Assembly: GCA_024276275.1 (NCBI GenBank)
Contig: JAJRXM010000033.1
Span: 1-47,343, forward strand
DNA: 47,343 nucleotides
Direction of reading: 5' to 3'
From: Candidatus Zixiibacteriota bacterium
Lineage (GTDB): Bacteria > Zixibacteria > MSB-5A5 > GN15 > FEB-12
The notes beneath the pieces were generated by a model, which was not told the origin of the DNA, made no database searches, and saw only the letters and a list, made by a program, of their open reading frames with translations. Shown here in pieces: positions 11,018 to 36,827 of the stretch. The stretch's first letter is position 1; each line of letters begins with the position of its first letter. The position numbers and the translations under genes were made by a program.

Positions 11018-11839
11018 ATGTATAAAAATTTAGCTTTAGCAGTAATAGTCGGATTAATTCTTAGTAGTTCAACAAATGCGTTTGATAATTTTCATAGTCA
11101 AAAAGCAGCAGTCAAAAAACTTAACTATGATTCTCTTTTCTCAGCAGCTACACCTATTGAAAAATCATCAGAAGGAAAAAAACTCATTTCAAATTGTATT
11201 ACTGCTTACGGTGGGGAAAAACATCTTAAAAAACTTTCATCGTTTAAGATTCAATACTATATGGAAGGATTATTAACTGATGAAAAAATTGAAGTAGAAA
11301 AATTCTTTACCCGTAATCGCCAATACAAGATAATTCGCTACCAAGAACCGACAGTCGAAAGCAGAATATTAAACGGAAATGATTCTTGGTTTATAGGACG
11401 GGATACCTCGATATTCTTATATAGCGGTAAATACAAAGCTGAATTATTCAGCTATCTTACACTCTCAATGCCGCTTGGAATTAAAACAGAACCTTTTTCT
11501 GAAATAAGATACGGCAAACGTGGTGATGATGCTCTTTCGTATTTGTATTTAAAGAAAAATGATTCATTGATGATAGTCTTAGGTGTTAACAAGAAAAGTA
11601 ATTTTATTGAATACGTTGAGGGTGTTATTTATCAAGACTCAACGTCATTTGTTTTTATAAACAAACTGGATAATTATGGTATTGTTGAAGGCTTTTGGTT
11701 TCCTAATACAGTAGTAAATATCTCAATGGGGTTAGAAGTTGCTAAATCAATTGTAACTGAAATTGAAATAAATCCGACATTAAAAGATAATGAATTTAAA
11801 CCAGGATCTGTTTTAAAGAGTTCTAAACAATCATATTAG
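11018..11839 (+). CDS. exported LolA-like / outer-membrane lipoprotein-sorting type protein
   Basis: Start at the second ATG (11018) because GAAAGG lies at proper distance and the protein then begins directly with a signal peptide, MYKNLALAVIVGLILSSS-TNA. An upstream in-frame ATG at 11003 would add five residues. The mature part (~250 residues) opens with the AYGGEKHLKKLSSFKI pattern typical of FCB proteins with a LolA/LolB-like half-barrel, and is otherwise strand-rich. It is the first gene of the cytochrome cluster, 11 bases before a nonaheme cytochrome. It may carry a lipidated or hydrophobic client for the electron-transfer apparatus. The family placement is tentative. Confidence 0.6.
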   Translation: MYKNLALAVIVGLILSSSTNAFDNFHSQKAAVKKLNYDSLFSAATPIEKSSEGKKLISNCITAYGGEKHLKKLSSFKIQYYMEGLLTDEKIEVEKFFTRNRQYKIIRYQEPTVESRILNGNDSWFIGRDTSIFLYSGKYKAELFSYLTLSMPLGIKTEPFSEIRYGKRGDDALSYLYLKKNDSLMIVLGVNKKSNFIEYVEGVIYQDSTSFVFINKLDNYGIVEGFWFPNTVVNISMGLEVAKSIVTEIEINPTLKDNEFKPGSVLKSSKQSY

Positions 11840-11850
11840 GTAGAAAATTT

Positions 11851-12552
11851 ATGAAAACATTTGGCAAACATATTGTAATTTCATCATTTATCATACTTTT
11901 ACTGTCTTTTTCAACAGTATTAGCAAAAATCAACAAAGATAAAGATTGTCTGAAGTGCCACCCGACATTTTATAAAAAACTTGTTAAAAAAAATATACAT
12001 GAGCCTTTTAAAGAAAAAAAATGTAATTCCTGCCATAAATTTCATGGATTTCAAAACAAAATAGCATTTAAAGATGAAATTATTATCCTTTGTAATAACT
12101 GTCATAATGTTCTTGAAAATACTGATGAAGAGAATTACCACGCTCCGATAGTTGATGATTTAAGCTGTGTAAACTGTCATAGCCCACACAGTTCAGATTT
12201 ACAAAAATTATTAAAAGAACCGGTCAGTACACTCTGTGCCGATTGTCACGATACCGAAGACGAAGATTTTAAAAAATTACATGTCGTAGATTTTGAAATA
12301 AAATTATGTGTTTCCTGTCATAACCCGCACGGATCAAATAATGAAACATTTTTGTATGCGGATCAGCATCCTCCTTTTGAAGAGCGAGAATGTGCTACAT
12401 GCCATGAAGACAGAACTATAGAGGAGTTAAAAAGTCCTGAATTATGTCTTGAGTGTCATGACCAACCTGAGCCGACCGGAGTTCATAGTAAAAAAAGAAT
12501 ATCTGACAAGTCTTGTATTTCTTGCCATTCTCCACATATCCTCAAAAAATAA
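11851..12552 (+). CDS. nonaheme c-type cytochrome (doubled CXXCH type), exported
   Basis: A 233-residue protein with a signal peptide ending ...STVLA and nine CXXCH motifs: CLKCH, CNSCH, CNNCH, CVNCH, CADCH, CVSCH, CATCH, CLECH, CISCH. They are spaced in pairs with trailing SPH/NPHG/SPH, the pattern of the doubled-CXXCH domain. About one heme per 23 residues implies a packed heme wire with little other fold. It probably sits in the periplasm as a relay from the inner membrane to the outer-membrane barrel encoded downstream. The start has AGGT about ten bases upstream. A ~430-base gap with a promoter candidate follows it. Confidence 0.9.
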   Translation: MKTFGKHIVISSFIILLLSFSTVLAKINKDKDCLKCHPTFYKKLVKKNIHEPFKEKKCNSCHKFHGFQNKIAFKDEIIILCNNCHNVLENTDEENYHAPIVDDLSCVNCHSPHSSDLQKLLKEPVSTLCADCHDTEDEDFKKLHVVDFEIKLCVSCHNPHGSNNETFLYADQHPPFEERECATCHEDRTIEELKSPELCLECHDQPEPTGVHSKKRISDKSCISCHSPHILKK

Positions 12553-12986
12553 GTAAATAGAACTGTTTTTCGGGAATAAAAGGCGTTTTACTCTTATTTT
12601 CGTAAGCTGTTGTATTACTATACATTGCAAGGTAGATTAAAATGTAGACATTATTACTAATCTTTATGTATAATTTACCGATAAAATAAGAAAAAACCAG
12701 ATAATTAACTTGACAAATGCAGACTTATTTGTTATTTTTTTCACAATAATGTCACGATGTTGTCATACGAAAGAAGGTTTAATAGCCGTTATGAAACAGA
12801 ACTCAAACAGTTATCACCATATAAACTCTATAGATACAGCTTATTGTTCTTTATTTGCTCCAGAACAAAGATATTTTTTGGTTGGTATGACAATTGCCTA
12901 TATCAATGTGAATATAATAACAAGCTGTACTAACAAGACTATAATGTAAGAGAAAAACCGTATCGATTATGAAAAAGGAAATTACC
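12553..12986. other. 434-base intergenic region with promoter candidate inside the cytochrome cluster
   Basis: An open frame at 12710-12949 exists but has no ribosome site and unconvincing composition, so I leave it out. The stretch holds a TTGACA promoter candidate (see 12710-12738), implying a 5' leader of about 240 bases before the FN3-NHL gene. I found no recognisable riboswitch. Confidence 0.4.
12710..12738 (+). promoter_or_regulatory. sigma-70 type promoter for the main cytochrome operon
   Basis: TTGACA (12710-12715), a 17-base spacer and TATTTT (12733-12738). It has a perfect -35, a moderate -10, and the right orientation and place to drive the FN3-NHL and cytochrome genes. Confidence 0.45.
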
Positions 12987-14537
12987 ATGAAAAACCGCTC
13001 GATATTTAAAATAGGAATTACTACTCTTTTGCTGCTTGTTTGCTTTGTCTCTTTCGCAACTGCAGCAAATGGGCCTAGCTGGATTGGTGCTTTTTTTGTA
13101 AAAGGTAAAGTCGGCCTCAAATGGAAAACATTAGAAGGCAGTACAGCATATAAAATCTACCGTTCTACAGACGGCGGTGAATTCACAGTCCTGAAATCTA
13201 CTGATAAAACACAGTATTTTGATGCTGATATATCTTCCGGAACAGTTTATCGATATAAAATAGCAGCTGTAACAGCCTCGGGTGAATTAGAATCTTCCGA
13301 GAAAACTGTCTCTATTCCCGGAGTCAAAGCCGGTGATTTCAACGCTCCTTCCGGTCTAGGAATACGAGTTGACAGAAACAAGATATTTCTCAGTTGGGAT
13401 CAAGTAAATGGTGCCATGGCATATAATATCTATCGCGGGATTACTCCCGGTGGAGAATATGAATTAGTCGGCTCGGCACAAGCTACTAAATATGCCGATA
13501 AAGAAGGGATAACCAAAGGTAAGACATACTATTATGTTTTAACCGCTTTAAACGAAGACTTTGAAGAAACAAAGTATTCAGCTGAAGTATCTATTAAATT
13601 CGGTATTAGCCTAGAAGAACAAAAAGCCTTAGAAGCCTCTGAAAACAATATTGTTCTAGAAGACATCAAATTAACATTCTTATTTGATATTAAAACAGCC
13701 GGACACGCCGGAGACATGAATCAGCCGACAGATGTAGTTATTGATTCTAAAAGTAATATTTATATCTCGGATGCGTTAAACCAAAGAATTCATTGTTATG
13801 ATAACTCCGGGAAATTCTTGTATTCATTCGGTGAAAAATCCGAACCAGGAAAAGAAGATGAAGCTGCTGAAGGTTCATTCTCCTATCCGTTTGCAATGGC
13901 TATTGATAAATCGGATAAAATCTATGTTTCAGATATTTTAAATCATGATATTCAAGTATTTTCACCTGACGGCAAATTTATCAAACGGATTAGAATTAAT
14001 ACTACACCGGAACAGGAAAAGTTCAGACCAAACGGTCTCAAAGTTCTGCCTGACGGTAACCTGATTGTAACCGACGCCGGTAATCATCGTTTTATGAAAA
14101 TAGATCAAACAGGTAAAATATTATTTGAAGTCGGCAGTCGTGGAGCTGAAGATTCTCAGTTTATATTCCCGGATGGTATATCAGTTTCAAAAGATAATAT
14201 AATTTCCGTTGTAGATGTTATTAACTGCCGTATTCAGCAATTTGACATGAACGGTAAGTTTATTCGTAAATTCGGTGAACCCGGACAATCAGCAGGTACT
14301 TTTGGTCGTCCGAAAGCTATAATAGAAAGCCCGATTGATAATCGACTTTGGGTTTCAGACGGTTTAGGTAATATTGTACAAATTTTTTCTCCCGAGGGTG
14401 TCGTAAAAGCAGCTATAACTAAGTTTGAAGATACCGATAATATACTAATGACTCCTCGCGGTATGTTTATAAAAGACGGACGTTTCTATATAGTAAACCG
14501 CGTCCCTCATCAATTATTAGTATTTAAGATTGGATAG
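12987..14537 (+). CDS. exported FN3-FN3-NHL beta-propeller protein
   Basis: Start chosen at 12987 (AAAGGAA upstream, then MKNRSIFKIGI...), not 12969. The 516 residues comprise a signal peptide ending ATAA, two fibronectin type III domains (about 25-105 and 115-200: AYKIYRSTDGG, AYNIYRGITPGG), a linker, and a six-bladed NHL propeller (about 235-515) with recurring IYISDALNQRI, IYVSDILNHDI, IVTDAGNHRF strands. NHL propellers are protein-binding scaffolds and recur four times in this cluster beside cytochromes. It probably sits on the outer face or in the periplasm and organises cytochromes (inference). The next gene follows after 74 bases that include a GTGAAATT/AATTTCAC hairpin. Confidence 0.85.
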   Translation: MKNRSIFKIGITTLLLLVCFVSFATAANGPSWIGAFFVKGKVGLKWKTLEGSTAYKIYRSTDGGEFTVLKSTDKTQYFDADISSGTVYRYKIAAVTASGELESSEKTVSIPGVKAGDFNAPSGLGIRVDRNKIFLSWDQVNGAMAYNIYRGITPGGEYELVGSAQATKYADKEGITKGKTYYYVLTALNEDFEETKYSAEVSIKFGISLEEQKALEASENNIVLEDIKLTFLFDIKTAGHAGDMNQPTDVVIDSKSNIYISDALNQRIHCYDNSGKFLYSFGEKSEPGKEDEAAEGSFSYPFAMAIDKSDKIYVSDILNHDIQVFSPDGKFIKRIRINTTPEQEKFRPNGLKVLPDGNLIVTDAGNHRFMKIDQTGKILFEVGSRGAEDSQFIFPDGISVSKDNIISVVDVINCRIQQFDMNGKFIRKFGEPGQSAGTFGRPKAIIESPIDNRLWVSDGLGNIVQIFSPEGVVKAAITKFEDTDNILMTPRGMFIKDGRFYIVNRVPHQLLVFKIG

Positions 14538-14611
14538 AAAAAGTGAAATTCATAAACAAAATTTCACCATGTGTATTTATAACAACTTCGTACTCTTAGG
14601 AGGTATAAGGT

Positions 14612-15751
14612 ATGAAAAAACTATTAACACTTGTCATCGTGCTAACTATAATTAGTTTGCCAATGACAGCTTTTGCAGCCGTAGCCGGCTCATTACATGA
14701 TTTAACCGGCTCCGGAACTCAGCTATGTTTTGCGTGTCATACACCGCATAATGCAGCCGGTGCAAATCTTTGGAGTTCTACTCCAAGTGGAACTTTCTCA
14801 GGTGTACAAGATCTTTGTTACACTTGTCATGACGGTTCAGTAACAACTCACGGTACTGCAACAGCTTTTAACGCAGCTTTGCAGCAACACACTCCAGTCG
14901 GTGCTGATTGTTCCGGTGCCGGAGCTTGTCACGATGTTCACAATGAAGGAACTGGTAGTTTCTTAGTTGTTGCCGAAACAAACGGCAACTATTGTGAATC
15001 TTGTCACGGGGCAACTCCATTTACCGGTGCTGAAGGCCTTGGTGATCACACCGCAGGTATTACTCACTTTACCAATGGTGGGTCTTTTACCTGTAACCAA
15101 TGTCATACACCTCATGGTGCTGTAGCTCAAACAACAAACCCGGCTGGTCTAACCAATCCGATTTTGTTAGCAGACAACCAACCAGGAGCATACTATGGTG
15201 CTTTCTGTATCAGTTGTCACAACGGTACAGCTCCTGCGGTTGCAACTTCAGGTACCGGCGGGCAAGCCGCTACGGATGTATTTGACTATGCTGAAGCTCT
15301 CAATGACGGCACAGAACTAAAACATCCTACTATTACAACTACAGGTTTAACACCTACTAACGGTTGTAATCTTTGTCATGATGTACATGATCCTGCAGGA
15401 ACAGCCAGCGGTTATATTCTGACATCTGATAACACAAACTCAGCTTTCTGTGTTTCATGTCACAATGTTGCAGGTGCTCCACCTGTCGGAGGTAACACTC
15501 ACTTTACTGGTGTTCCGACAGATGTTGCCATGAATAACGGTTTGACCCCTGCACTACCTTGGGCAAATCAAATTGATGAAGACGGTACAGCAGGTGCCGA
15601 TTGGCCATCAGCAACAGCAAATATGATGACCTGTGAAACTTGTCACTCTGTTCATAGACAAGGTAATACCGGTGTTGATGCTGCTTATTTCTTAAGACAT
15701 GAAAACGGTTTATCAAACCAATTATGTCGAGCTTGCCATACGGCAAACTAA
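14612..15751 (+). CDS. multiheme c-type cytochrome, 9 CXXCH plus one CX5CH
   Basis: A 379-residue exported protein (signal peptide ends AFA) behind a perfect AGGAGG. Canonical heme motifs in order: CFACH, CYTCH, CESCH, CNQCH, CISCH, CNLCH, CVSCH, CETCH, CRACH. Between the second and third lies CSGAGACHDVH, a CX5CH motif in the place where the pattern expects a heme. The N-terminus (GSLHDLTGSG...CFACHTPHNAAGANLW) resembles the tetraheme OmcE-like proteins downstream, so this looks like an extended relative. Long Gly/Thr/Ala-rich linkers suggest a surface-exposed protein. It is followed by a strong terminator, so it may be expressed at higher level than the genes beyond. Confidence 0.9.
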   Translation: MKKLLTLVIVLTIISLPMTAFAAVAGSLHDLTGSGTQLCFACHTPHNAAGANLWSSTPSGTFSGVQDLCYTCHDGSVTTHGTATAFNAALQQHTPVGADCSGAGACHDVHNEGTGSFLVVAETNGNYCESCHGATPFTGAEGLGDHTAGITHFTNGGSFTCNQCHTPHGAVAQTTNPAGLTNPILLADNQPGAYYGAFCISCHNGTAPAVATSGTGGQAATDVFDYAEALNDGTELKHPTITTTGLTPTNGCNLCHDVHDPAGTASGYILTSDNTNSAFCVSCHNVAGAPPVGGNTHFTGVPTDVAMNNGLTPALPWANQIDEDGTAGADWPSATANMMTCETCHSVHRQGNTGVDAAYFLRHENGLSNQLCRACHTAN

Positions 15752-15793
15752 AATATTTAGCTTTTTATTGCTAAGTATTTAACTTTAATTATT

Positions 15794-15830
15794 GGCAGAG
15801 TCCGGGCATATGCTAAGACTCTGCCTTTTT
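15794..15830 (+). terminator. rho-independent terminator inside the cytochrome cluster
   Basis: GGCAGAGTC (15794-15802) pairs with GACTCTGCC (15817-15825) and is followed by TTTTT. It ends only 8 bases before the ATG of the next cytochrome at 15839, so expression of the downstream genes depends on read-through or a promoter not visible here. Confidence 0.85.
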
Positions 15831-15838
15831 GAAAAGAT

Positions 15839-16942
15839 ATGAAAAAGATGACTTATATAGTATTAGTTTCGATTTTATCCGTATTCTTTGCTCAAGATGC
15901 TCAGGCTGAAAATATGCTGGAGATATTAACTCCTCCCCAGTATATATCTACACAGTCAAATTATCTGCATATTGTCGGTAAAACTAATGCTCCTCTAGTG
16001 GAAATTTTTCTTAATGATGAAAAGCAGTTTGAACTTCTAGTGAAAGATTCTATCTTCCATGCCTCTTTAATTTTTGGTTATGGAGTCAATGAAGTCAGAA
16101 TCATTCCAATTTATAGCGAATCCAAAGCTTCTGATAGTTTTAGTAAAACTGTTGAAATCATGTACGGACCTAGAATAAGTAGAAAATTTAAGAAAATTTA
16201 TGCTCCTTATACTTTTCATGCAATTCAGAATAATAAAGACTGTAGTGCTTGCCATACAACTTTTAGTGAAAATGTTGATTCATTAACATACGATACCGGT
16301 TGTTTAGATTGTCATAGCTCTTTAAAAGATAAGATGAAAAAACATATAAAATCTGATGTGCGAACTTGTATAACCTGCCACCAGCAAGATAGTCAGTTTT
16401 ATGGTTCTTCAGCAACCGAAGATACTAATCTTTGCTATAGTTGTCATACCGATAAAATTGGGCAATTTGCTCAAGATTTTATCCATGGTCCCGTTGCCGG
16501 CGGTACATGTACTATTTGTCACGACCCGCACGGTTCACAGTTCGACCATAATTTGGTAAATCCTGAGCAAATTCTTTGTTTTTCCTGTCATGAAGATTTA
16601 GAGGAAGATACAAAAGATAAAAGAGTAACCCATGACCCATTTAAAAACGGGCAATGCGGTGCCTGTCATGACCCCCACGCAACCTCAAATAAATGGGTTC
16701 TTGTTAAAAATTCAGAAGAGGTTTGTTTGGGATGCCATAACCCCGATAATAAATCAATGGATTGGCACTCACACCCATATAATGTGAAACCGAAACGAAA
16801 ATTAAAAATAAATATTGAGTTAAGCAAACAAGGCAATTTAGAGTGTATTTCTTGCCATAACCCTCATGCAACCAACTCTGAACATTTGCTTCGTATAAAT
16901 GAAGAGTTCACTTGTATAGGATGTCATACGGATGTATTATAA
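15839..16942 (+). CDS. decaheme c-type cytochrome with N-terminal Ig-like domain
   Basis: A 367-residue exported protein (signal peptide ends QAEN). Residues ~22-110 form a strand-rich, heme-free domain of Ig/bacterial surface type (YLHIVGKTNAPLVEIFLN). Residues ~130-367 carry ten CXXCH: CSACH, CLDCH, CITCH, CYSCH, CTICH, CFSCH, CGACH, CLGCH, CISCH, CIGCH, several followed by DPHG/DPHA/NPHA. Ten hemes equals the count of MtrA-type conduit cytochromes, but the motif pattern is of the doubled-CXXCH kind. The purine stretch GAAAAG serves as a weak ribosome site. The NHL lipoprotein follows within 6 bases, implying coupling. Confidence 0.88.
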   Translation: MKKMTYIVLVSILSVFFAQDAQAENMLEILTPPQYISTQSNYLHIVGKTNAPLVEIFLNDEKQFELLVKDSIFHASLIFGYGVNEVRIIPIYSESKASDSFSKTVEIMYGPRISRKFKKIYAPYTFHAIQNNKDCSACHTTFSENVDSLTYDTGCLDCHSSLKDKMKKHIKSDVRTCITCHQQDSQFYGSSATEDTNLCYSCHTDKIGQFAQDFIHGPVAGGTCTICHDPHGSQFDHNLVNPEQILCFSCHEDLEEDTKDKRVTHDPFKNGQCGACHDPHATSNKWVLVKNSEEVCLGCHNPDNKSMDWHSHPYNVKPKRKLKINIELSKQGNLECISCHNPHATNSEHLLRINEEFTCIGCHTDVL

Positions 16943-16947
16943 ATAAT

Positions 16948-17958
16948 ATGAAAACGAAAATTATCATATTCGGATTAATCCTTATAATGGCAGGATGTTC
17001 TCATCCTCCCAAAGAATCTGTTGATATGTCCTGGCCTCCTCTCCCTCAGGCTCCTCGCATAAAATATGTGAAGTCTATCTACGGAAGCGAAAATCTGAAG
17101 CGGTCTTTTTTGGGAAAAGTAAGAGATTTTTTCATAGGAAAGTCTAAACCGACTCCAATCGGCAAACCGTATGGGATTAATTTTCAGACCAAATCCAAAC
17201 TATATATTGCGGATACATCCAAAAAAGGGGTTTTAGTCTTTGATTTTAAATCAGGAACCTCCAAATTTTTCAATTCTCTCGGAAAACATGGTACTTTATT
17301 AGAACCGGTTTATGTAATAATAGACAATCAGGGTAATATTTATGTCTCAGATACCGATTTAAATAAAGTGGCAGTTTTTGATAAAAATTATAGATTTTTA
17401 CGTTTTATAGGAGATGATACAAATTTGATAGCACCGGTCGGATTGGCATTTAATTCTAACCAGTCACTTTTGTTTGTAGTAGATACTCGTGGACACCGTG
17501 TAGTTGTCTATAAAAAAGACGGTACATACTTACGGACAATAGGTAAACGTGGCGACGAAAAAGGTGAGTTCCATTACCCCATGACCGTTCAAATCAATAA
17601 ACATGATACAGTATATGTTGTTGATGCTTTTCATTTTGCCGTACAGGCATTTGATATTGAAGGAAATTTTCTCTTCAGTTTTGGTCCAACCAAAGTAGGT
17701 ATGGGGCTGATGGCTCGTCCGAGAGATATTGCTTTGGATACGGAAGGTAATATATATATTACCGATGCTATGAGAAATAATGTTCAGATTTATAATTCGA
17801 CGGGAGAATTGCTTTTGCGTTTTGGAGAAGTCGGAAACGCCCCGGGGCAGTTTCAATTACCTGCAGGAATTTCAATTGATAAAGATAACTATATATATAT
17901 AGCTGATTCTGTGAACAAACGAATTCAGGTATTTAAATACCTTGCAACAACAGAATGA
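16948..17958 (+). CDS. NHL beta-propeller lipoprotein
   Basis: The start at 16948 gives a textbook lipoprotein signal, MKTKIIIFGLILIMAGC, with lipobox IMAGC. The longer frame from 16912 overlaps the preceding cytochrome. The ~315-residue mature chain opens with WPPLPQAPRIKYVKSIYG, shared with the NHL protein at 21013 (WPSPPDKARLQYVGEI), then an NHL propeller with repeated LYIADTSKKGV, IYVSDTDLNKV, IYITDAMRNNV, IYIADSVNKRI strands. It is a membrane-anchored scaffold, facing the periplasm or the surface depending on sorting. It directly precedes a tetraheme cytochrome, the same NHL-tetraheme order repeated at 21.0-22.6 kb. Confidence 0.85.
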   Translation: MKTKIIIFGLILIMAGCSHPPKESVDMSWPPLPQAPRIKYVKSIYGSENLKRSFLGKVRDFFIGKSKPTPIGKPYGINFQTKSKLYIADTSKKGVLVFDFKSGTSKFFNSLGKHGTLLEPVYVIIDNQGNIYVSDTDLNKVAVFDKNYRFLRFIGDDTNLIAPVGLAFNSNQSLLFVVDTRGHRVVVYKKDGTYLRTIGKRGDEKGEFHYPMTVQINKHDTVYVVDAFHFAVQAFDIEGNFLFSFGPTKVGMGLMARPRDIALDTEGNIYITDAMRNNVQIYNSTGELLLRFGEVGNAPGQFQLPAGISIDKDNYIYIADSVNKRIQVFKYLATTE

Positions 17959-17972
17959 TAAGGAGTATTAAA

Positions 17973-18638
17973 ATGAGAAAGTATACAATAACCATATTTT
18001 TGCTTATCCTTCCGATACTAATATGGGCAGGAGTCGATCAGACACCGCATAATTTCACCTCAAGTACATATAGCAAAAATGCATACTTTGTCGGTACAAG
18101 ACAGGTCTGTGTTTTTTGTCATACTCATCATAACGGCAATCAGACTTTAGGTGCTGCTCTCTGGAATCATGAAACAAACGAGACTCAGACATATACAATG
18201 TACAGTTCTAACACAATGGATATGACTCAATCAGCTCAACCTCATAAGGGTTCTTTGGTTTGTCTTTCCTGTCATGACGGTACAATTGCGATAAACTCTC
18301 TCAATAATCTTCCGGGACAGGAACAAGCGGGGTTATACGGTTCACCTGGAGGTTCAAATTTAGACGGTTCCGGTAGACTCGCTGCCAGTTCGCACGCCTT
18401 TGTCGGTACTGATTTGACAGATGACCATCCGGTAGGTATTACATACGATGCTTCACAAGATATCGGTAATTTCCAAGCTAAAACAGGTAATTCTGCCAGC
18501 TATCCGGACAGACTGCTTTCAGAGGGATTATATGTAGAATGTTCATCATGCCATAATCCTCACGATAATACTTTTTCCAATTTCCTAGTTGAAGATAACT
18601 CCGGCTCGCAGCTTTGCCTGCGTTGTCATATTAAATAG
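17973..18638 (+). CDS. tetraheme c-type cytochrome, OmcE-like
   Basis: Start at 17973 behind AAGGAG (the ATG at 17955 overlaps the previous stop but lacks a ribosome site). The 221 residues have a signal peptide ending IWAG and exactly four CXXCH: CVFCH, CLSCH, CSSCH, CLRCH. The layout CxFCHTHHNG...LWNHE...CLSCHDGTIA...DDHPVGI...CSSCHNPHD...LCLRCH is the tetraheme family to which I believe the Geobacter filament cytochrome OmcE (~220 residues, four hemes) belongs. That assignment is from memory of the family pattern. It is paralogous to the protein at 21990 and flanked by an NHL lipoprotein and an outer-membrane barrel, a fitting context for an exported nanowire subunit. Confidence 0.8.
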   Translation: MRKYTITIFLLILPILIWAGVDQTPHNFTSSTYSKNAYFVGTRQVCVFCHTHHNGNQTLGAALWNHETNETQTYTMYSSNTMDMTQSAQPHKGSLVCLSCHDGTIAINSLNNLPGQEQAGLYGSPGGSNLDGSGRLAASSHAFVGTDLTDDHPVGITYDASQDIGNFQAKTGNSASYPDRLLSEGLYVECSSCHNPHDNTFSNFLVEDNSGSQLCLRCHIK

Positions 18639-18649
18639 AGACACTTACC

Positions 18650-21013: not shown

Positions 21014-21990
21014 TGAAAAGATTATTAGTAACCTTCATACTCATATTATTCTTTTCACAGGCGACCACAGCAAATGGCGAAAAGATGGTTTGGCCGTCTC
21101 CACCTGACAAAGCAAGATTGCAATATGTCGGAGAAATAAACTTGCAAGACCTTTCAATTGAAGCAGGCTTCTTTGGAAAAATCGGAAGACTATTCACCGG
21201 TGATGATAACAATGAAACTCTTTCGCTTCCTTTTGACATTGCGGTAACAAATCAGTATATATTTCTAACCTGTCAAAATATTCAGGCGTTGATTAAAATT
21301 GACCGTCTCAAAAAGAGTTATAAATTTATAACCGATAAAAAGAACACATTTACCTATCCGATAGCATTATGTACCGATGCTCAAGGGAATGTCTATATCT
21401 CTGATGTAGAGAATAAAACTATTTATTTATATAAGAACAATTCGCTTAAACCATTTATGTCAAACTATTTGGTACGACCTACCGGACTTACAATTCTTCC
21501 TACCCAAAACAAAATTTATATTGTTGATACCGGAGACCATAGTTTGAAAGTTTTTAATCTTAACGGTGAATTTTTACAACAGATACCTCGGCCGAATGAT
21601 TCTGCTATCTTCCACTACCCTACATTCGCAACTACTGCCGGAAAGAACATAATTATCAACGATGCCTTAAATTATAAAATCAAAACATTTGATCCTACCG
21701 GTTTACAACTCAATTCATTTGGCATGGAAGGTTCTGGACCGGGAACTTTTAGCCGTATCAAAGGAATCGCCGTTGATTCTGAAAATCATATTTACGTTGT
21801 GGACAATCTTGCTGATAATTTTCAGATTTTTTCAGAAGAAGGTACTTTACTTCTTACAGTCGGTTCAAGAGGTCAGGCAGAAGGACAGTTTTGGTCACCT
21901 GCCGGAATAGACATTCAAAATGATACTATTTATATAGCAGATACATTTAATAATAGAATCCAGGTCTTTTACTACTTAGGAGATCAATAA
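21013..21990 (+). CDS. exported NHL beta-propeller protein
   Basis: A 325-residue protein with a cleavable signal peptide (FFSQATTANG) but no lipobox Cys, unlike its paralogue at 16948. After the shared WPSPPDKARLQYVGEI opening come NHL blades: VYISDVENKTI, IYIVDTGDHSL, IIINDALNYKI, IYVVDNLADNF, IYIADTFNNRI. Start and stop overlap neighbours as TAATG on both sides, so the barrel, this gene and the next tetraheme form one translational unit. Probably a periplasmic or surface scaffold for the adjacent cytochrome. Confidence 0.85.
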   Translation: MKRLLVTFILILFFSQATTANGEKMVWPSPPDKARLQYVGEINLQDLSIEAGFFGKIGRLFTGDDNNETLSLPFDIAVTNQYIFLTCQNIQALIKIDRLKKSYKFITDKKNTFTYPIALCTDAQGNVYISDVENKTIYLYKNNSLKPFMSNYLVRPTGLTILPTQNKIYIVDTGDHSLKVFNLNGEFLQQIPRPNDSAIFHYPTFATTAGKNIIINDALNYKIKTFDPTGLQLNSFGMEGSGPGTFSRIKGIAVDSENHIYVVDNLADNFQIFSEEGTLLLTVGSRGQAEGQFWSPAGIDIQNDTIYIADTFNNRIQVFYYLGDQ

Positions 21991-22625
21991 TGAAAAGAAC
22001 GATATCACTGCTTATTATATTAACACTTTATGGGACAGTTTTAGCAGGTTCTGTTATTAACTCAAAACATAATTTATCTGTTTCGGGTACAGGCGATATA
22101 AAGGCAACCTCTGAGACCAGAGTATGTATTTTCTGCCATAGTTCTCATAATACTTCATCAGAAGGACCACTCTGGAACCATGAAACAACTACGGGTAATT
22201 TCAAAACATACAACCGTTCGACAATGAACTCTACCGCAGAACAACCGAACGGTGCCACTAAACTCTGTTTATCCTGCCACGACGGTACAATTGCTGTCGG
22301 TGCTATTAAAGGTGTAGCTCAACCGATTAAGATGAATAATGTCGGACCGTCCGGTGAAATACCGACAAGCAGTAAATCCTTTGTCGGTATGGACCTTTCA
22401 GGCACTCATCCGGTCTCTGTAAAGTATGAACAAAGTACAGCTCTTGCTGATAATCATCTCAGATGGCCTCCGCAAGACCCTGAAAAGATTGTCGGCACCG
22501 ATGCGGACGGATATGTACAGTGTACTGCCTGTCATGATCCGCATGATGATTCTAAGTCAGATAAATATCCATTTTGGAATAAAACGACATTTGATGCGGT
22601 ATGTATCTCCTGTCATAGTTATTAG
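21990..22625 (+). CDS. tetraheme c-type cytochrome, OmcE-like paralogue
   Basis: 211 residues, signal peptide ending VLAG, four CXXCH: CIFCH, CLSCH, CTACH, CISCH. Same layout as the protein at 17973: SKHNLSVSGTG opening, CHSSHNT after the first heme, PLWNHETT, CLSCHDGTIAVGA, GTHPVSVKYE, CHDPHDD. A ribosome site AGGAG overlaps the end of the NHL gene. Extra distal His residues following the motifs (HxxHN, DPHD) fit bis-His heme ligation. It is probably a second filament or adaptor subunit; two paralogues near one barrel may form alternative or mixed filaments (inference). Confidence 0.8.
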   Translation: MKRTISLLIILTLYGTVLAGSVINSKHNLSVSGTGDIKATSETRVCIFCHSSHNTSSEGPLWNHETTTGNFKTYNRSTMNSTAEQPNGATKLCLSCHDGTIAVGAIKGVAQPIKMNNVGPSGEIPTSSKSFVGMDLSGTHPVSVKYEQSTALADNHLRWPPQDPEKIVGTDADGYVQCTACHDPHDDSKSDKYPFWNKTTFDAVCISCHSY

Positions 22626-22637
22626 AAAGTAACGTTT

Positions 22638-23705
22638 ATGAAAAAGATATTTCTTAGTTTAATTATTTTATCTGTTTTTCTCATACAAACAGAAATATTC
22701 TCTCATATCAATTCCTCTAACTTACCTGAGGGATGCGGTTCCTGTCATGTCGGACATGGAAAAACAAATGAACCGATGCTGGCACATTCAGAAGAAAAAT
22801 TTTGTTACCAATGTCACGGAACAGAACTGCAGCAAACCGAAATGAAAGCAACGGGCAAGCTTTCTCAAACTATTGAACTGGCTAATATAGAAAATGAATT
22901 CAAAAAACAGTACCGTCATCCTGTAGTTGACGGTTTTGGACACTCTCCAAAAGAACAACTTCCTTATGCTTCCGGTTCAGACATTAACCATGCCGAGTGT
23001 ATCGACTGTCATAATCCGCATCAACGTTCTCAACTCAGTTCTCCCTCACAAAAATACTATGAGGTTTCGGGGTATTCTCTCTCAAGTCAATACTTGGAAA
23101 GCTCCTCGAATGAATATGAAATCTGTTTTAAATGTCATGTAGATAGAACTGCTGTCGAGACATCATCAGACAACGCCTTTAAACAATTTTCACTTATCAA
23201 CACATCACAGCATCCTGTTACGAAAGCATCTACAAGCGGAAAATCGACATCGCTTATCAAAGCTCTCGGACCGGGTAACATGATGAAATGCTCTGATTGT
23301 CATACAAATGACGATCCCGATGGTCCAAAAGGACCACACGGTTCAAATTATCGGTTTTTATTAAGCGGTAACTATGATATAGAACCGATAAATGACGAAT
23401 CTCCTTATGCCTATGATTTTTGTTATTCCTGCCATGACAGGTCATCTATACTTGCCAATGAATCGTTCCCGCTTCATAGAGAACATATTGTCGGCGACCC
23501 TTTAAAAGGTATTCCGGGAACTTCCTGTTATACTTGTCATGCTTCTCATTCGTCACAGCAAAATAACCATTTAATAGCATTTAATAAAAAAGCTGTTAAA
23601 AGAGACCAGAAGACTAATTTGATTCAATATAATTCGACAGGTTTAAAAAGCGGCAGTTGTTATTTATCCTGCCATAACTATGCCCATAGCCCGGCAAGAT
23701 ATTAA
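22638..23705 (+). CDS. multiheme c-type cytochrome, 7 CXXCH plus C-terminal CX3CH
   Basis: A 355-residue exported protein (N-terminal MKKIFLSLIILSVFLI). Heme motifs: CGSCH, CYQCH, CIDCH, CFKCH, CSDCH, CYSCH, CYTCH, then a terminal CYLSCHNYAHSPARY with a CX3CH spacing. The ending GSCYLSCH...H.P..Y recurs in the large cytochrome at 25974 (GECYVTCHGKDHDPKSY), and the two also share CYSCHDRSSIL before the final motifs. The C-terminal third therefore appears to be a common module. Probably periplasmic or cell surface. The following NHL gene starts after 17 bases. Confidence 0.88.
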   Translation: MKKIFLSLIILSVFLIQTEIFSHINSSNLPEGCGSCHVGHGKTNEPMLAHSEEKFCYQCHGTELQQTEMKATGKLSQTIELANIENEFKKQYRHPVVDGFGHSPKEQLPYASGSDINHAECIDCHNPHQRSQLSSPSQKYYEVSGYSLSSQYLESSSNEYEICFKCHVDRTAVETSSDNAFKQFSLINTSQHPVTKASTSGKSTSLIKALGPGNMMKCSDCHTNDDPDGPKGPHGSNYRFLLSGNYDIEPINDESPYAYDFCYSCHDRSSILANESFPLHREHIVGDPLKGIPGTSCYTCHASHSSQQNNHLIAFNKKAVKRDQKTNLIQYNSTGLKSGSCYLSCHNYAHSPARY

Positions 23706-23722
23706 TCGGTAACGGTGATATT

Positions 23723-25231
23723 ATGAAAAAACAAATTATATATTTATTATTTAGTACACTATTCTTAAGTATTCCTTTATCACTCAGTGCTGTAGAAATT
23801 GAATACTTAGGAGCATTAGAAAGCAACATTACAGCCCCAACCTCTATTACGGTTGATAACAATAGTCTGACTCTGTTGGAACCCTTTTCTAAAGAAATAA
23901 AAATCTTTACCGCAAACGGTCTCTTCCAACAAAAACTGCACATTCACGGCGATGCCAACTCGGTTAACAAGCTGTCAGACAACGAATATCTCTATTGCGA
24001 TTTAGATGCTCACATAGTTGCCTATGTTGATTTATCATTAGGCTTACAGACAGATTACTTTAAAAACATTTATACATTTCTAAACCCTATTGATATTATT
24101 ATTGACGATAAGATTTATGTTCTTGATGCCGAATCAAAACAGATTCTGGTTTTCAGCAAACAGAAAGTTTTACTTTCTACTATACAGTTACAAGACAACA
24201 ACGGAACAGAAATTTTATTTCCGAATAGTTTTGCTAAAAACAGCATAACCGGTAATTACTATGTTCTTGACCAACTCACTTCTAAAATTTGGATTCTCCA
24301 ACCGGACGGTACCTTTATACTATCTTTTTCCACTTTCGGTGGAGCTGCCGGAGAAATTACACGTGGCGGTGAAATATCTGTCAGTTCTAAAGGTCTCGTA
24401 TATATTTCTGACAGATACCAAAACAGAGTTTTGATTTTTACTAAAGACGGCAAATATCTTGATATGATTCCAAACAGCAATACAAATGTCAATTTTAATT
24501 TGCCGACCGGAGTTTCTGTTGATGAAAATGATGTTCTGTATGTAGCATCTACTGAAAATTCAAAAATACAAATGTTCCACATATCCGCCTCGTCAACTGA
24601 AACCGAAGCAGTCAGCATGGAGCAGCTGAGACCTCTTGCTAATGATACCGTTCAATCAGAAGATATTGAATTTTTTGTCCGAGCAACTGCACCTCTTACA
24701 ACTGAAATCAGATATATCGATTTTGAATTATATACTCTTTCGGATTCTACCTCACCTATCGCAACACAATTAGGCGTTGTTCCGACAGAAACTTTCGACA
24801 GTCTGCTAAACATTACCTTTTATACCGCCCAATGGGTCACAACCGAATTACTGAAAGACGACTCTGAATATAAATGGCGAACAAGAGTACACACCCAAGA
24901 TACCGTCAACAGTTGGTCGTCATTCCAGATGTTTGCAACATCCGGTGTACCGCTTAGTTTTTCTCTGGCACAAAACTATCCGAACCCGTTTAACCCTTCG
25001 ACAACGATTAATTTTACATTATCTAAAGAATCTGATGTAACTATAAAAGTTTTTAACCTCAATGGACAAAATGTAATCACCCTTGTAGATAAATCATTAC
25101 CTGCCGGTAAACATACAGTAAACTGGTCAGGTAAGAATACAAACGGACAACAATCAGCAACCGGAATATATTTTTATAGACTTACTGCTGATACATTCGT
25201 TGAGACCAAAAAGATGGTACTTTTAAAATAG
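23723..25231 (+). CDS. NHL-like propeller protein with T9SS-type C-terminal sorting domain
   Basis: A 502-residue exported protein (signal peptide ends PLSLSA). Residues ~25-290 are a divergent NHL/six-bladed propeller (VYISDRYQNRVLIF is the clearest blade). Residues ~300-400 form a strand-rich domain. The last ~90 residues begin FSLAQNYPNPFNPSTTINF and end TGIYFYRL...VETKKMVLLK, the type A sorting domain found on proteins sent through the type IX secretion system or an FCB equivalent. This is the only protein of the cluster with such a tail, so it is predicted to be attached to the outer surface, where it could bind cytochromes. Confidence 0.85.
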   Translation: MKKQIIYLLFSTLFLSIPLSLSAVEIEYLGALESNITAPTSITVDNNSLTLLEPFSKEIKIFTANGLFQQKLHIHGDANSVNKLSDNEYLYCDLDAHIVAYVDLSLGLQTDYFKNIYTFLNPIDIIIDDKIYVLDAESKQILVFSKQKVLLSTIQLQDNNGTEILFPNSFAKNSITGNYYVLDQLTSKIWILQPDGTFILSFSTFGGAAGEITRGGEISVSSKGLVYISDRYQNRVLIFTKDGKYLDMIPNSNTNVNFNLPTGVSVDENDVLYVASTENSKIQMFHISASSTETEAVSMEQLRPLANDTVQSEDIEFFVRATAPLTTEIRYIDFELYTLSDSTSPIATQLGVVPTETFDSLLNITFYTAQWVTTELLKDDSEYKWRTRVHTQDTVNSWSSFQMFATSGVPLSFSLAQNYPNPFNPSTTINFTLSKESDVTIKVFNLNGQNVITLVDKSLPAGKHTVNWSGKNTNGQQSATGIYFYRLTADTFVETKKMVLLK

Positions 25232-25240
25232 GTTAAAGCT

Positions 25241-25942
25241 ATGAAGAAAATACTTTATGCAACGATAGTTCTTTTAATCTTTACATCAACAGTTTCCGCT
25301 CTTGATGACCCCCACGGTGCTGCTGCCAGTATAGATTGTGGACAATGTCATATTTCGCATTCTACTCTCGGGGATATTTTAGTTAATTCAACTGATTCAC
25401 TAGTTTCCACTCTCTGTCTATCCTGTCATACCCCCGGAGGCTGGACTGGTATGACTAAATTTTTCTCATCATCGTTTAAAGCACAACCGGGTATCTCCGG
25501 TACCTCGCATTCCTGGGATGTTGATTCTGCTAATACTATGTATGGAGCAAATCAACCTCAAAGCCCTGAATTAATCGACCATATTACTAAAAGCGGCAAA
25601 GTTACCTGTGCTACTTGTCATGATCCACATGCCAACAGCACTCCTCCTTTTCTCAGACTGGATAACTCAACGGACCAACTTTGTTTAGATTGTCATCTAA
25701 GCCGCAATATTGCTTCTGTTAAAACATATACAGGCAGTATTCTTTCTCATCCGGTTGGAGTAGCTTTACCTACTACTACTGCTTTTCACAATCCTCCAAT
25801 TGATACCGACGGCAACCCGCAACCTTCAGACGGCAATACAACCAATGATTTTCAGTTTGGGGCAGGCAATACAATGAAATGTACAAGCTGTCACGGAGTA
25901 CATTATACCGATTCAAATTCCGGAACAGTTGACGGACCATAG
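25241..25942 (+). CDS. pentaheme c-type cytochrome
   Basis: A 233-residue exported protein (signal peptide ends VSA). Five CXXCH: CGQCH, CLSCH, CATCH, CLDCH, CTSCH. It starts DDPHGAAASIDCGQCHISHS. The CATCHDPHA and CLDCHLS segment parallels the second half of the tetraheme paralogues. The final heme motif lies 20 residues from the end (CHGVHYTDSNSG). It sits 9 bases after the propeller gene and 31 before the giant cytochrome, so it is in the same transcript. Probably a small shuttle or adaptor. No lipobox. Confidence 0.85.
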   Translation: MKKILYATIVLLIFTSTVSALDDPHGAAASIDCGQCHISHSTLGDILVNSTDSLVSTLCLSCHTPGGWTGMTKFFSSSFKAQPGISGTSHSWDVDSANTMYGANQPQSPELIDHITKSGKVTCATCHDPHANSTPPFLRLDNSTDQLCLDCHLSRNIASVKTYTGSILSHPVGVALPTTTAFHNPPIDTDGNPQPSDGNTTNDFQFGAGNTMKCTSCHGVHYTDSNSGTVDGP

Positions 25943-25973
25943 ATAATAAAACATATAGAATAGAGCTAAGAGT

Positions 25974-28900
25974 ATGAAAAAAAAATATCTACCGACCGAT
26001 AAAAAACTGCTAAGTATACTAGTAGCGGTTTCTGTTATAATAGCACAGTCAGCCTTTGCTGTTATAAACATTACCCCTTCAGCAACAACACCTACACCTG
26101 CATCTATTGACAGGTTTGGGACAAATCTTGTTACGCTGTCTACAACTTTTGAAGATACTGATTTACCTGCTCTAAATTTATTTTTTGCCACCTTTAAAGT
26201 TCGGTCTCCTTTTAATGAGTTCACTCTCGTAATTGCTGATTCTATTCAAAACGGAGTAGGCGGTTTAACTATCACAGATGACGGGGGCGGTTTTTACACC
26301 GCATCAATAAATTGGGACCCTGCTGATAATATCACTCTAGGCTTGTATGATTTATATTTTTCTGTTACCAACGGTACCTTTTCTGATACTGATTTATTTA
26401 CTAGCAACCTTAATGAACTTACTATCGCAAACGGTGGAGAAAACAGTATACCTATAGTACAATCTGATGCTGTTTTTGCATCTCCTGCCGGTGTTGAACG
26501 TATCGGAGTAAACACAATTACTTTTGCCGCCGATTTTTATGACCCTGATATACCGGGAGTAAATGCCTTTACGGTCAATTTCAAACTCCGTCATCCTGAT
26601 AATCTTGCCGAGACAATTTTGACAACTGATGCCGCAAACGGAACTCAAGGAGTTACTATTACTGACAACGGAGCAGGCTCATATACCGCATCTGTTTCTT
26701 GGGACCCTCCTGATATTCAAACCATAGGATTTTATGATCTCTATTTTGATGTCTCAGACGGTTTAGGTTCAACTTTTGATGATTACGCGAACAACACTGA
26801 TGAAATGGAAATTTTCGATGCTATTTCCAATAATCCGCCGACTGTTATTGCAGGTGCTGTTTTTACAATCCCTACTTCTGTAAACCGAATCGGTTCTGAA
26901 TTTATAACTATAAAAGCAGACTTTGCCGATACCGATATTCCAAGCAGTGCAGCATTTACCATTACTATTTCTGTTCAGGATAACACGAATACTACATATA
27001 CATTAGTCAATGCCGCTAAAGACGGTGAACAAGGACTTCGTGTTAAAAACATAGGTGGAGCAAACTTCGCAGCATCTTACATTTGGGATCCATCTGATTT
27101 ACAAGTAACAGGTCCTTATGATTTATTCTTCGAAGTAAGCGATCAGCAAAGTGCAACGGCAACTGACGGATATGCCAACAATACCGATGAACTAACTATC
27201 ACATCATCTGCTCCTGCCGGAGACGGCAACCTTCTGCGACGTTCACATGTTGCCGATAACTGCGGTGGTGTTAATTCTGCCTGTCATAACGTACAGGGCC
27301 ACCAAGGGCAAGACTGTTTAGTATGTCACTCATCCCATGATGTCACAAATATTTATTTAATAAAAGATTCTATTCAAACACCAAATTCCGGTCTTAGAGA
27401 AGTAATTTTTAAAACTCTTGGAATCGGTGACCCATTTAACGCCCCTGACCCTACTGTTGGAGATCCGACATCAGGCGTTATGGCAGATGCCAGCGACGGT
27501 GTCGGCACCGGAGTTTGTGAAGTTTGTCATACGACTACAACTCATCATAGAAACGACGGAAGCCAACTTCCGGACTCTCATAACGATGCCCAGGACTGCA
27601 CCCAGTGTCATGTTCATACCGACGGCTTCAAAGGTGGAGAATCAGGCGGTGGTTTATCTTGTTCAACATGCCATAGCCAAATATATGCTGCCATGGACAG
27701 CACTTCAATACTTGCCCGTCATATATTAGGAAACGATTCCGCTGACTATTCACCCGGGGCTTCCGGAATGTTCACTATCAAGAATTGTCTGAGTTGTCAT
27801 GTCGATCACGATATTTTCCGTCCAGATTTGAATCCGGGTATTGGTACCAGAGGTTCTAACCTTCGAGTCGATTGGGCAATTGATCCTGTCAGCGGCGATA
27901 ATACAGTTCTTTTAAATTCTGATTATCAATCAACCGGCAATGGAGGTGTTTGTCTTTCCTGTCATGATGGTTCGGATCCGACTTGTTCAGCTTGCCATTC
28001 TGCACATACGCCACCGAAAGATTTCCTCTTGCCATTCGCAAGTGCATCAAGCGTTCATCGTTTTATACCTAAAGCTGAGTATGATTCTGCTATCAGTACT
28101 CACAATTATTCGGTTCCGATAACATTCACAACAGACGGTTCAGTTTTTAATGCAAATTGTACTAAATGTCACAATGACGATATGTCAAAAACATATCAAA
28201 ATTCAACGGTAAAAGTCTCAATACACGGTTCAAGCTTCTCATTAATGCTTGACTCTACCGGTATCGCAGCACCAACAGAACCACTTGAAGAAGCCTTCTG
28301 TTTTAAATGTCACTCTACTACTTCAAATCCTAATGCCGGAGTTAATCTTGATTACTTTGGAATAAAAGGCATGGGAGCTCCTACTCTCGGTATCGAAGCA
28401 GAATTTGGGTTACCTTCTACCCACCCTGTCGGAAGTTTTTCCGGAATTCATTCTCCTATAGATACACTCGGAACTACGGCACGTCATGTAGAATGTGCTG
28501 ATTGTCATAACCCTCATGCAGCTACATCTGATAACCCTCCTTCTCCTGCTTTAAACGGAGCATTATTTGGAGTGAACGGTGTGGACATTGACGGTGCGGA
28601 AATCAGACCTGTAGTAGAATCTTATCAGGTCTGTTTAAAATGTCACGGTGACAGTCCGGGTACAACAGCCTATGTACAGCGTAATTTTGTAAATTTAAAT
28701 ACAAGAGATGAATTTAAACCGACTTCGCAATCGTTCCACCCGGTAGCAGCAGTTGGTACAAATACTAATGTACCGTCTTTAATAGCTCCTTTGACAGAAA
28801 CTTCCAGAATCGATTGTCAAGACTGTCATTCAGCTCCGGTAGGAGGTTCAGCAGGTCCTCATGGTTCAGATTTTACTCCTATTCTTAAGATGCGTTATGA

Positions 28901-29222
28901 AACAGCAGACTTTACCCCTGAGTCAGCTGCAAATTATGCTTTATGTTATTCTTGCCATGACAGATCATCTATTTTAAATGACGTAAGTTTCAAAGAACAT
29001 GATAGACATATTCGACGAGAAGATACACCTTGTTCCGGATGTCATGACTCACACGGAGTAGCAAATACTCCTCAGGGAGACGGAACACATCTTATTAACT
29101 TTGATGTTTCTTACTGTACTCCATCTAGCTCAGGACGACTTGAATTTATTGATTTGGGTAATCAACGAGGTGAGTGTTACGTTACTTGTCATGGTAAAGA
29201 CCATGATCCAAAATCATATTAA
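25974..29222 (+). CDS. giant multiheme cytochrome: three Ig-like repeats + 14 CXXCH, one CX6CH, one CX3CH
   Basis: 1082 residues with a signal peptide (SVIIAQSAFA). Residues ~30-400 hold three tandem ~110-residue Ig/cadherin-like repeats, each running from a (F/V/I)DRxG or NRIGS opening to WDP..(T/V)(L/I)GxYDLYF(S/D)V. From ~420 on come the hemes: an unusual CGGVNSACH (CX6CH), then CLVCH, CEVCH, CTQCH, CSTCH, CLSCH, CLSCH, CSACH, CTKCH, CFKCH, CADCH, CLKCH, CQDCH, CYSCH, CSGCH, and a terminal CYVTCH (CX3CH). The Ig stalk suggests cell-surface display with the heme part projecting, as in terminal reductases of other electron-transfer systems. It ends the cluster and is followed by a large hairpin. 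The substrate (mineral, partner cell, electrode) cannot be told. Confidence 0.88.
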   Translation: MKKKYLPTDKKLLSILVAVSVIIAQSAFAVINITPSATTPTPASIDRFGTNLVTLSTTFEDTDLPALNLFFATFKVRSPFNEFTLVIADSIQNGVGGLTITDDGGGFYTASINWDPADNITLGLYDLYFSVTNGTFSDTDLFTSNLNELTIANGGENSIPIVQSDAVFASPAGVERIGVNTITFAADFYDPDIPGVNAFTVNFKLRHPDNLAETILTTDAANGTQGVTITDNGAGSYTASVSWDPPDIQTIGFYDLYFDVSDGLGSTFDDYANNTDEMEIFDAISNNPPTVIAGAVFTIPTSVNRIGSEFITIKADFADTDIPSSAAFTITISVQDNTNTTYTLVNAAKDGEQGLRVKNIGGANFAASYIWDPSDLQVTGPYDLFFEVSDQQSATATDGYANNTDELTITSSAPAGDGNLLRRSHVADNCGGVNSACHNVQGHQGQDCLVCHSSHDVTNIYLIKDSIQTPNSGLREVIFKTLGIGDPFNAPDPTVGDPTSGVMADASDGVGTGVCEVCHTTTTHHRNDGSQLPDSHNDAQDCTQCHVHTDGFKGGESGGGLSCSTCHSQIYAAMDSTSILARHILGNDSADYSPGASGMFTIKNCLSCHVDHDIFRPDLNPGIGTRGSNLRVDWAIDPVSGDNTVLLNSDYQSTGNGGVCLSCHDGSDPTCSACHSAHTPPKDFLLPFASASSVHRFIPKAEYDSAISTHNYSVPITFTTDGSVFNANCTKCHNDDMSKTYQNSTVKVSIHGSSFSLMLDSTGIAAPTEPLEEAFCFKCHSTTSNPNAGVNLDYFGIKGMGAPTLGIEAEFGLPSTHPVGSFSGIHSPIDTLGTTARHVECADCHNPHAATSDNPPSPALNGALFGVNGVDIDGAEIRPVVESYQVCLKCHGDSPGTTAYVQRNFVNLNTRDEFKPTSQSFHPVAAVGTNTNVPSLIAPLTETSRIDCQDCHSAPVGGSAGPHGSDFTPILKMRYETADFTPESAANYALCYSCHDRSSILNDVSFKEHDRHIRREDTPCSGCHDSHGVANTPQGDGTHLINFDVSYCTPSSSGRLEFIDLGNQRGECYVTCHGKDHDPKSY

Positions 29223-36772: not shown

Positions 36773-36788
36773 ATTAAAATGTAATGCA

Positions 36789-36815
36789 TTGGCGGAGTTT
36801 TTACAACCCCGCCAA
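36789..36815 (-). terminator. hairpin between napB and the last polyferredoxin gene
   Basis: TTGGCGG (36789-36795) pairs with CCGCCAA (36809-36815). No T-run follows on the minus strand. Probably an mRNA-stability or partial attenuation structure. Confidence 0.4.
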
Positions 36816-36827
36816 GCATATTCTCAA

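Follow-up and report, generated by a model that had tools for sequence, protein, structure and literature searches.

Undecaheme electron transfer (Uet) complexes are described from Tenderiales and some Gallionella (excerpts of PMC10734462). They combine a tetraheme cytochrome (UetA), a barrel (UetC), NHL proteins (UetHI) and an undecaheme cytochrome (UetJ) with a peptidylprolyl isomerase (UetB) and trihemes (UetDEG). Filament-type cytochromes also lie beside a porin-cytochrome conduit in ANME-partner sulfate reducers, where the OetABI cassette is found with OmcX/OmcS-like cytochromes (PMC10553843, in part). In the same excerpts, "not well understood" is how Murali et al. describe the transfer of electrons from the filament to the interior of the cell, and a 2025 review, as excerpted, names nanowire anchoring and redox coupling to membranes as unresolved (PMC12307469).

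We analyzed a window of 47,343 nucleotides, the whole stretch of contig JAJRXM010000033.1 from a Candidatus Zixiibacteriota bacterium. We lean slightly towards the reading that one operon in this window encodes an OmcE-type nanowire and the outer-membrane conduit that carries it, in which tetraheme c4a would form the wire and the proteins c4b and c7 would be a split surface docking cytochrome. The operon has the tetraheme, barrel candidate, NHL and undecaheme content of Uet, with the undecaheme split. Unlike Uet, it includes a second, stalked undecaheme, a decaheme, nonahemes, four propellers and a type IX secretion system (T9SS) tail. Pfam scans of all 14 operon proteins returned no family of the UetB-like isomerase kind, and none of the operon cytochromes is a UetDEG-like triheme. 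Its filament-type cytochromes are of OmcE type, unlike the OmcS-like ones of the OetABI neighbourhood, a comparison made by description (PMC10553843, in part).

A conserved operon of 14 genes

The operon (11003-29222) has all of its 14 genes on the + strand, and 12 of the 13 intergenic gaps are ≤87 bp or overlaps, the remaining one being 416 bp. The original prediction of eight multiheme cytochromes with 62 CXXCH motifs in one direction agrees with our recount, in which the eight open reading frames contain 9, 9, 10, 4, 4, 7, 5 and 14 motifs. Shuffling the residues of the same eight proteins (1000 shuffles) gave a mean of 0.37 motifs and a maximum of 4. The products of 22638 and 25974 (genes are named here by their first position) each have one further conserved site, a CX3CH, at the C-terminus, which brings the potential heme sites to 64. 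The four proteins predicted to be NHL propellers all match Pfam NHL.

Synteny comparison showed the same arrangement of genes in other Zixiibacteriota genomes; one genome from a different phylum has it too. Other phyla have a short cluster of tetraheme, propeller, pentaheme, barrel-like protein, propeller and undecaheme, and some of these clusters contain two or three stand-alone tetrahemes. The short form has the same ingredients as Uet, a likeness drawn from gene content alone (excerpts of PMC10734462). The system appears, from its gene content and homologies, to be a variant of a Uet-like type. The suggestion that it is FCB-specific is unsupported, given the long form in another phylum, the short form in several more and the similar Uet complexes of Tenderiales and Gallionella (PMC10734462, in part).

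The first gene (11003-11839) encodes a secreted protein of unknown fold, with orthologues in the same place in seven genomes (G003, G002, G040, G004, G022, G124 and G367). It had been described as LolA-like, but no LolA-family match was found; the seven orthologues had no meaningful Pfam match and their profile matched nothing in the PDB. The next gene (11851-12552) encodes a nonaheme cytochrome of the MtrA/DmsE-like doubled-CXXCH type. Six of its seven relatives have 17 CXXCH motifs and the seventh has 16, and its own alignment row has one gap of 186 columns. It is a shortened version of this 16-17-heme protein and is probably periplasmic. NHL propeller 1 (12969-14537; Pfam NHL E 4.1e-18) has an fn3-like N-terminal part, and the nonaheme that follows (14612-15751) has a 42-86% identical gene in cluster-bearing relatives.

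Candidate components of an outer-membrane conduit

The decaheme cytochrome (15839-16942) has a heme-free N-terminal part and is MtrA-like, making it a candidate trans-outer-membrane wire. Residues 222-345 matched PDB chain 6r2q_A, which we take to be MtrA, with an E-value of 1.4e-10. Its score against TIGR03508 (DmsE decaheme) was 88.8 bits, below the cut-off of 192.2.

The 787-aa protein at 18650-21013 contains no Cys and is a candidate outer-membrane barrel. It had been predicted to be one, an assignment that we could not confirm. Its 10 orthologues gave no meaningful Pfam or PDB match, and the support is indirect: a C-terminal R-x-F is invariant across the 10 orthologues, and segments alternate. 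Counted on the protein alone, the alternation has a z-score of 2.4, and the 14-heme cytochrome scores 2.6 by the same count. A 10-row profile gave 44 alternating segments against 34.2 ± 2.8 in shuffled profiles, a weak excess. The alternation is thus too weak to prove the barrel fold, which we infer. The resemblance to the short-form barrel-like proteins is weak (hhalign probability 19%), and an AF2 model from 2 sequences was uninformative (pLDDT 28).

The barrel candidate and the MtrA-like decaheme would be common ground with MtrCAB and with the Geobacter porin-cytochrome (Pcc) systems. MtrB forms a barrel of about 26 strands. MtrB_PioB (PF11854) had no match in the genome itself or in the 10 orthologues of 18650. 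Among the scanned operon cytochromes, the best score against MtrC/OmcA (TIGR03507) was 22.6 bits, with a cut-off of 209.3.

Two OmcE homologues of different kinds

The two tetraheme cytochromes, c4a (17955-18638) and c4b (21990-22625), are both homologous to OmcE in sequence over nearly the whole chain. The c4a protein matched the OmcE filament of Geobacter sulfurreducens (7tfs) with an E-value of 2.7e-24 and 9yuq with 2.8e-20; c4b matched 7tfs with 2.1e-20. We aligned 24 tetrahemes (11 orthologues of each, OmcE and 9yuq) and found eight invariant His columns, which are those of the four CXXCH motifs and four distal His. The OmcE filament and 9yuq are likewise tetrahemes with four distal His, and 9yuq has exactly four His outside its CXXCH motifs. 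The OmcE filament has a rise of 34 Å (PMC12954529). An AF2 monomer model of c4a from 4 sequences was uninformative (pLDDT 31).

These histidines bear on whether c4a, the proposed nanowire subunit, polymerizes. The operon could instead be filament-free and encode a porin-cytochrome conduit, several surface cytochromes and tetrahemes that act as soluble or surface carriers. OmcE homology by itself is not proof of polymerization, and the filament role itself is disputed (PMC11077965, in part). We nevertheless consider a filament-free system unlikely. The distal His are invariant in the 24 sequences and kept in at least 40 of the 41 sequences of a larger alignment; in OmcE, one of them is a ligand to heme 2 in the neighbouring subunit (excerpts of PMC12203936). 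The PDB entry of the homologue 9yuq, moreover, contains 16 chains.

In a tree of 46 domains, undecaheme N-terminal domains and c4b were separated from c4a, OmcE and the stand-alone tetrahemes with support of 97/90. The tree included 9 c4a and 9 c4b sequences (8 of each from the 11 orthologues, plus G367) and omitted T_G144, T_G281 and T_G336a, flagged as long in an earlier tree; with these three long rows retained, the support of the deep c4b/c4a split drops to 34/26. The approximately unbiased (AU) test rejected c4a and c4b as sisters (p-AU 0.025) and with it an origin of c4b by duplication of c4a within the operon. It left c4b either inside or beside the undecaheme N-terminal domains (p 0.303 for beside). 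On these trees c4a and c4b are different things, with c4b on the undecaheme branch. This sets the pair apart from OmcE and 9yuq, and a filament is a prediction here. The original description of both as tetraheme OmcE-type subunits holds for homology and the four distal His, but c4b groups with undecaheme domains.

A probable split undecaheme cytochrome

In undecahemes, a domain of OmcE type is joined to one with seven hemes. The profile built from 7 of them matched OmcE over positions 21-222 with an E-value of 1e-43. The gene next to c4b encodes c7 (22638-23705), a heptaheme with one CX3CH that is present in all 11 c7 sequences surveyed. Comparison of undecahemes with c7 orthologues by hhalign gave a probability of 100 and an E-value of 3.4e-69. 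When c4b and c7 are joined and aligned with 10 of 12 undecahemes (U_G008 and U_G389 omitted), every one of the 11 heme columns is filled, columns 1-4 by c4b and 5-11 by c7. Judged by these alignments, c4b and c7 are homologous to the two undecaheme halves: c4b is identified as the split-off, OmcE-like N-terminal domain and proposed docking piece, and c7 as the detached C-terminal domain. Here they are separate proteins, which need not bind each other. We rejected stop-codon read-through from 21990 into 22638. A single stop, with no change of frame, separates the two in four genomes (G000, G003, G013 and G114), and the starts are out of frame in four others (G040, G004, G022 and G081), about as expected by chance, and 22638 has an apparent signal peptide of its own.

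If c4a and c4b both polymerized or co-polymerized, the operon would make two wires or a mixed one. Each is an OmcE homologue with all ligand histidines and each has its own propeller, and the two or three stand-alone tetrahemes of some short clusters fit such a scheme. We doubt it, because c4b groups with covalently joined undecaheme domains and the matching seven-heme half comes next in the operon.

Proposed partner-specific propellers and surface features

We built a propeller tree that included 6 long-form genomes; the G217 propeller is partial. The 18 propellers adjoining tetrahemes and the 18 adjoining undecahemes or c4b fell on opposite sides of one branch, and shuffles needed a mean of 12.4 changes. 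The support for this split is weak (62/90) and sequence composition is uneven. NHL propeller 2 (16912-17958), with an N-terminal lipobox (by eye), groups with propellers beside stand-alone tetrahemes and would be the partner of the filament tetraheme. NHL propeller 3 (21013-21990; Pfam NHL E 2.8e-24) would be the partner of the undecaheme module: in G281, a homologous propeller is fused to an undecaheme in a single frame. G144, from another phylum, has a single-frame NHL-PKD-c5 protein with a homologue of the operon's pentaheme cytochrome c5 (25241-25942) as its C-terminus.

NHL propeller 4 (23723-25231) matched PF18962 (Por_Secre_tail) and TIGR04183 above cut-off, and the genome encodes the T9SS part SprA. 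The claim of a T9SS-tagged protein is thereby borne out, and this propeller is predicted to reach the surface. The 14-heme cytochrome (25974-29222), with one CX3CH, has all 11 undecaheme heme columns and three extra hemes, which lie between its stalk and the undecaheme module. The N-terminal part, free of hemes, is ~450 aa long in this protein; in three other genomes its length is 1009-1530 aa. The stalk, originally termed Ig, is a real repeat with a period of ~129 residues, but it has no Pfam Ig match.

A periplasmic nitrate reductase (36206-41649) lies nearby, with NapA and its partners ~7-12 kb downstream, and the same holds in G003. The cytochromes might then form a periplasmic respiratory branch for this enzyme instead of serving extracellular transfer. 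We rejected this partnership as very improbable: the nap genes are on the opposite strand and were not found beside the operon in the fetched stretches of G040, G022 and G124, and the T9SS tail, stalk repeat and barrel candidate all point outward. The predicted role in extracellular electron transfer is supported by the OmcE homologues, the MtrA-like decaheme, the barrel candidate and the probable surface cytochromes side by side, and the four distal His of the OmcE homologues favour a filament-plus-conduit kind of system, also as predicted.

Discussion

In the nanowire-and-conduit reading, electrons would enter through the periplasmic cytochrome 11851 and pass to 15839, the MtrA-like decaheme, which would sit inside the barrel candidate 18650. 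From this conduit they would reach the surface undecaheme module formed by c4b and c7, and then the c4a filament. As a detached OmcE-like undecaheme domain with the full set of ligand His, c4b would present a filament-subunit face, and c4a would add onto it as onto another c4a. The wire would start there because c7 would block the opposite side of c4b. The second undecaheme module, on the repeat stalk of 25974, may act as a separate cytochrome for reach or contact, and the propellers may be partner-specific factors for assembly, export or clamping. Filament formation, docking, the locations of the parts and the direction of electron flow are all inferred.

Tentatively, and with rather less confidence, we propose a broader principle, in which a dedicated undecaheme docks OmcE-type nanowires. 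Its N-terminal domain would imitate a filament subunit and complete the shared-heme interface with the first subunit of the wire, and the barrel conduit would carry its other half. Zixiibacteriota encode the halves as separate proteins (21990 and 22638), and each cytochrome would have its own propeller.

The split undecaheme offers candidates for the joint between wire and cell: a specific protein pair, and a four-heme domain whose ligands are conserved. With this operon, filament-plus-conduit systems would reach a phylum represented here by metagenome-type assemblies only, and the whole operon is also present in a genome of another phylum. If the proposal is true, the parts shared across several phyla would represent a general solution for wire attachment.

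Gene content and conservation of the operon

All 14 genes of 11003-29222 are co-oriented, and their open reading frames bear out the original prediction of eight cytochromes with 62 CXXCH motifs in sum (0.37 on average in shuffled proteins). Two further sites, of the form CX3CH, lie at the C-termini of the heptaheme 22638 (c7) and the 14-heme protein 25974. Pfam scans recovered the four NHL propellers (12969, 16912, 21013 and 23723); the LolA-like label once given to the 11003 gene found no support in Pfam or PDB profile searches that included orthologues. 18650 contains no Cys, and its size, place in the operon and C-terminal motif make it a plausible outer-membrane barrel candidate.

The window genome (G000), assigned to Candidatus Zixiibacteriota, comprises 3.39 Mb in 100 contigs and is 95% complete. 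Within Zixiibacteriota, gene order is kept in G003, G002, G040, G004 and G022 and, within contig limits, in G081, G074, G124, G114, G013 and G051; in G002, of the window's genus, the 14-heme gene is on a separate contig. The second propeller, 16912, is matched in 13 of 132 phylum genomes (E ≤ 1e-50), 11 with this long operon and two (G008, G097) with a shorter cluster. Occurrence is patchy; no match was found in G001, a genome of the window's genus that is 88% complete. The tetrahemes 17955 (c4a) and 21990 (c4b), c7 and the pentaheme 25241 (c5) are 53-88% identical among relatives, and the barrel candidate is the fastest-changing part (20-65% among orthologues).

The first cytochrome in the window (11851-12552) has 9 hemes versus 16-17 in seven compared relatives, relative to which one in-frame stretch of ~185 residues is missing. 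In relatives, a redoxin/TPR gene directly precedes the first operon gene; in the window, the 278 bp (10725-11002) between the deiminase gene, ending at 10724, and 11003 are too short for it. In the 14-heme protein (25974-29222), the stalk of heme-free repeats ranges from ~450 to 1530 residues by genome. G003, G002 and G051 also have stand-alone homologues of the nonaheme 14612 (53-65%) that are not part of the operon (L084, L085, L086).

The undecaheme protein as a 4 + 7 fusion

A compact short form of the cluster was found in other phyla (G336, G360, G281, G345, G389) and in G038/G041 of the window's own phylum. Its order is tetraheme, propeller, pentaheme, barrel-like protein, propeller and 11-heme protein, with the parts rearranged in G345 and a three-heme ORF preceding the barrel in G281; in each of the five genomes from other phyla, the barrel-like protein has 0-1 Cys. 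Profile comparison resolves the 11-heme protein into an N-terminal OmcE-type domain and a seven-heme domain behind it: the undecaheme profile matches OmcE at positions 21-222 (E 1e-43) and the window's c7 family over the remainder (E 3.4e-69). In the window 21990 and 22638 are 12 bp apart; aligned with ten undecahemes, the joined pair fills every one of the eleven heme columns. The 14-heme protein 25974 carries the same eleven plus three more. The split pair also occurs in G144, of another phylum (42% and 37%). G324 has a stretch of 73% G+C (L119) on which an undecaheme, a 4-heme protein and a propeller are neighbours.

Both c4a and c4b match OmcE and its solved homologue 9yuq. Exactly eight His columns are invariant over 24 sequences, four heme-binding and four distal. 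The cross-subunit ligand of OmcE heme 2 is presumably the N-terminal histidine. PMC12203936 describes this ligand as a histidine from the next subunit.

A tree built from 46 four-heme domains places c4b, a G144 homologue and the undecaheme domains on one side, with c4a, OmcE, 9yuq and stand-alone tetrahemes on the other (support for the dividing branch, 97/90). A first tree of 41 rows, including three long ones, gave the same sides with a weak deep split (34/26). By AU test, c4b beside the undecahemes instead of among them was not rejected (p 0.303); c4a and c4b as sisters were rejected (p 0.025).

Propellers and their partners

In the best propeller tree, one branch (62/90) divides 18 tetraheme-adjacent from 18 undecaheme/c4b-adjacent propellers, and neighbour type changes once versus 12.4 times in shuffles. 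Propeller and undecaheme form a single protein in G281, as do propeller, PKD and c5 in G144. The window order reads as four propeller-plus-partner sets: 12969 with 14612/15839, 16912 with 17955, 21013 with 21990/22638, and 23723 with 25241/25974. The tree split, fusions and order support partner-specific roles for the propellers, which would act in assembly or export. NHL proteins adjacent to multiheme cytochromes are described for Desulfovibrio ferrophilus in PMC9769857.

A copy in another phylum

The nonaheme 14612 has matches in 13 of 386 genomes (E ≤ 1e-30), one of which, G367, is related to the window only at domain level. Its operon keeps the window's order, with identities (nonaheme 69%, c4a 65%, c4b 68%, c5 68%) similar to those within Zixiibacteriota; the operon is present in one of seven genomes of the G367 family, and the G367 tetrahemes nest within those of Zixiibacteriota. 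Together these observations point to transfer of the whole operon.

Possible electron supply and a proposed pathway

NapA lies near the operon in the window's genus. Periplasmic nitrate reductase genes, including a NapA above the NCBIfam cut-off, and then molybdenum cofactor genes occupy 36206-47341, and G003 has the same neighbours. The 600-aa protein of 33493-35295 had no match in a Pfam search; a 59% identical gene lies close to the short-form cluster of G008 (L069). Elsewhere in the window genome (L087, 9009-17011), a NapC/NirT-type 6-heme cytochrome is followed by 7-, 8-, 13- and 11-heme cytochromes, a group that is a possible inner-membrane electron supplier. Reported from a hydrothermal metagenome are mtrAB and rTCA in Zixibacteria MAGs (PMC9769843).

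The closest known system is the undecaheme electron transfer complex (Uet; PMC10734462). Within the literature searched, which was mainly open-access, neither the 4 + 7 make-up of the undecaheme nor a docking cytochrome is described, and both may be new.

Electrons would pass between periplasm and surface, in either direction, via 15839 within the barrel candidate, 21990 plus 22638, and a c4a wire. The proposed docking of this wire on c4b is based on c4b/undecaheme homology and histidine conservation.
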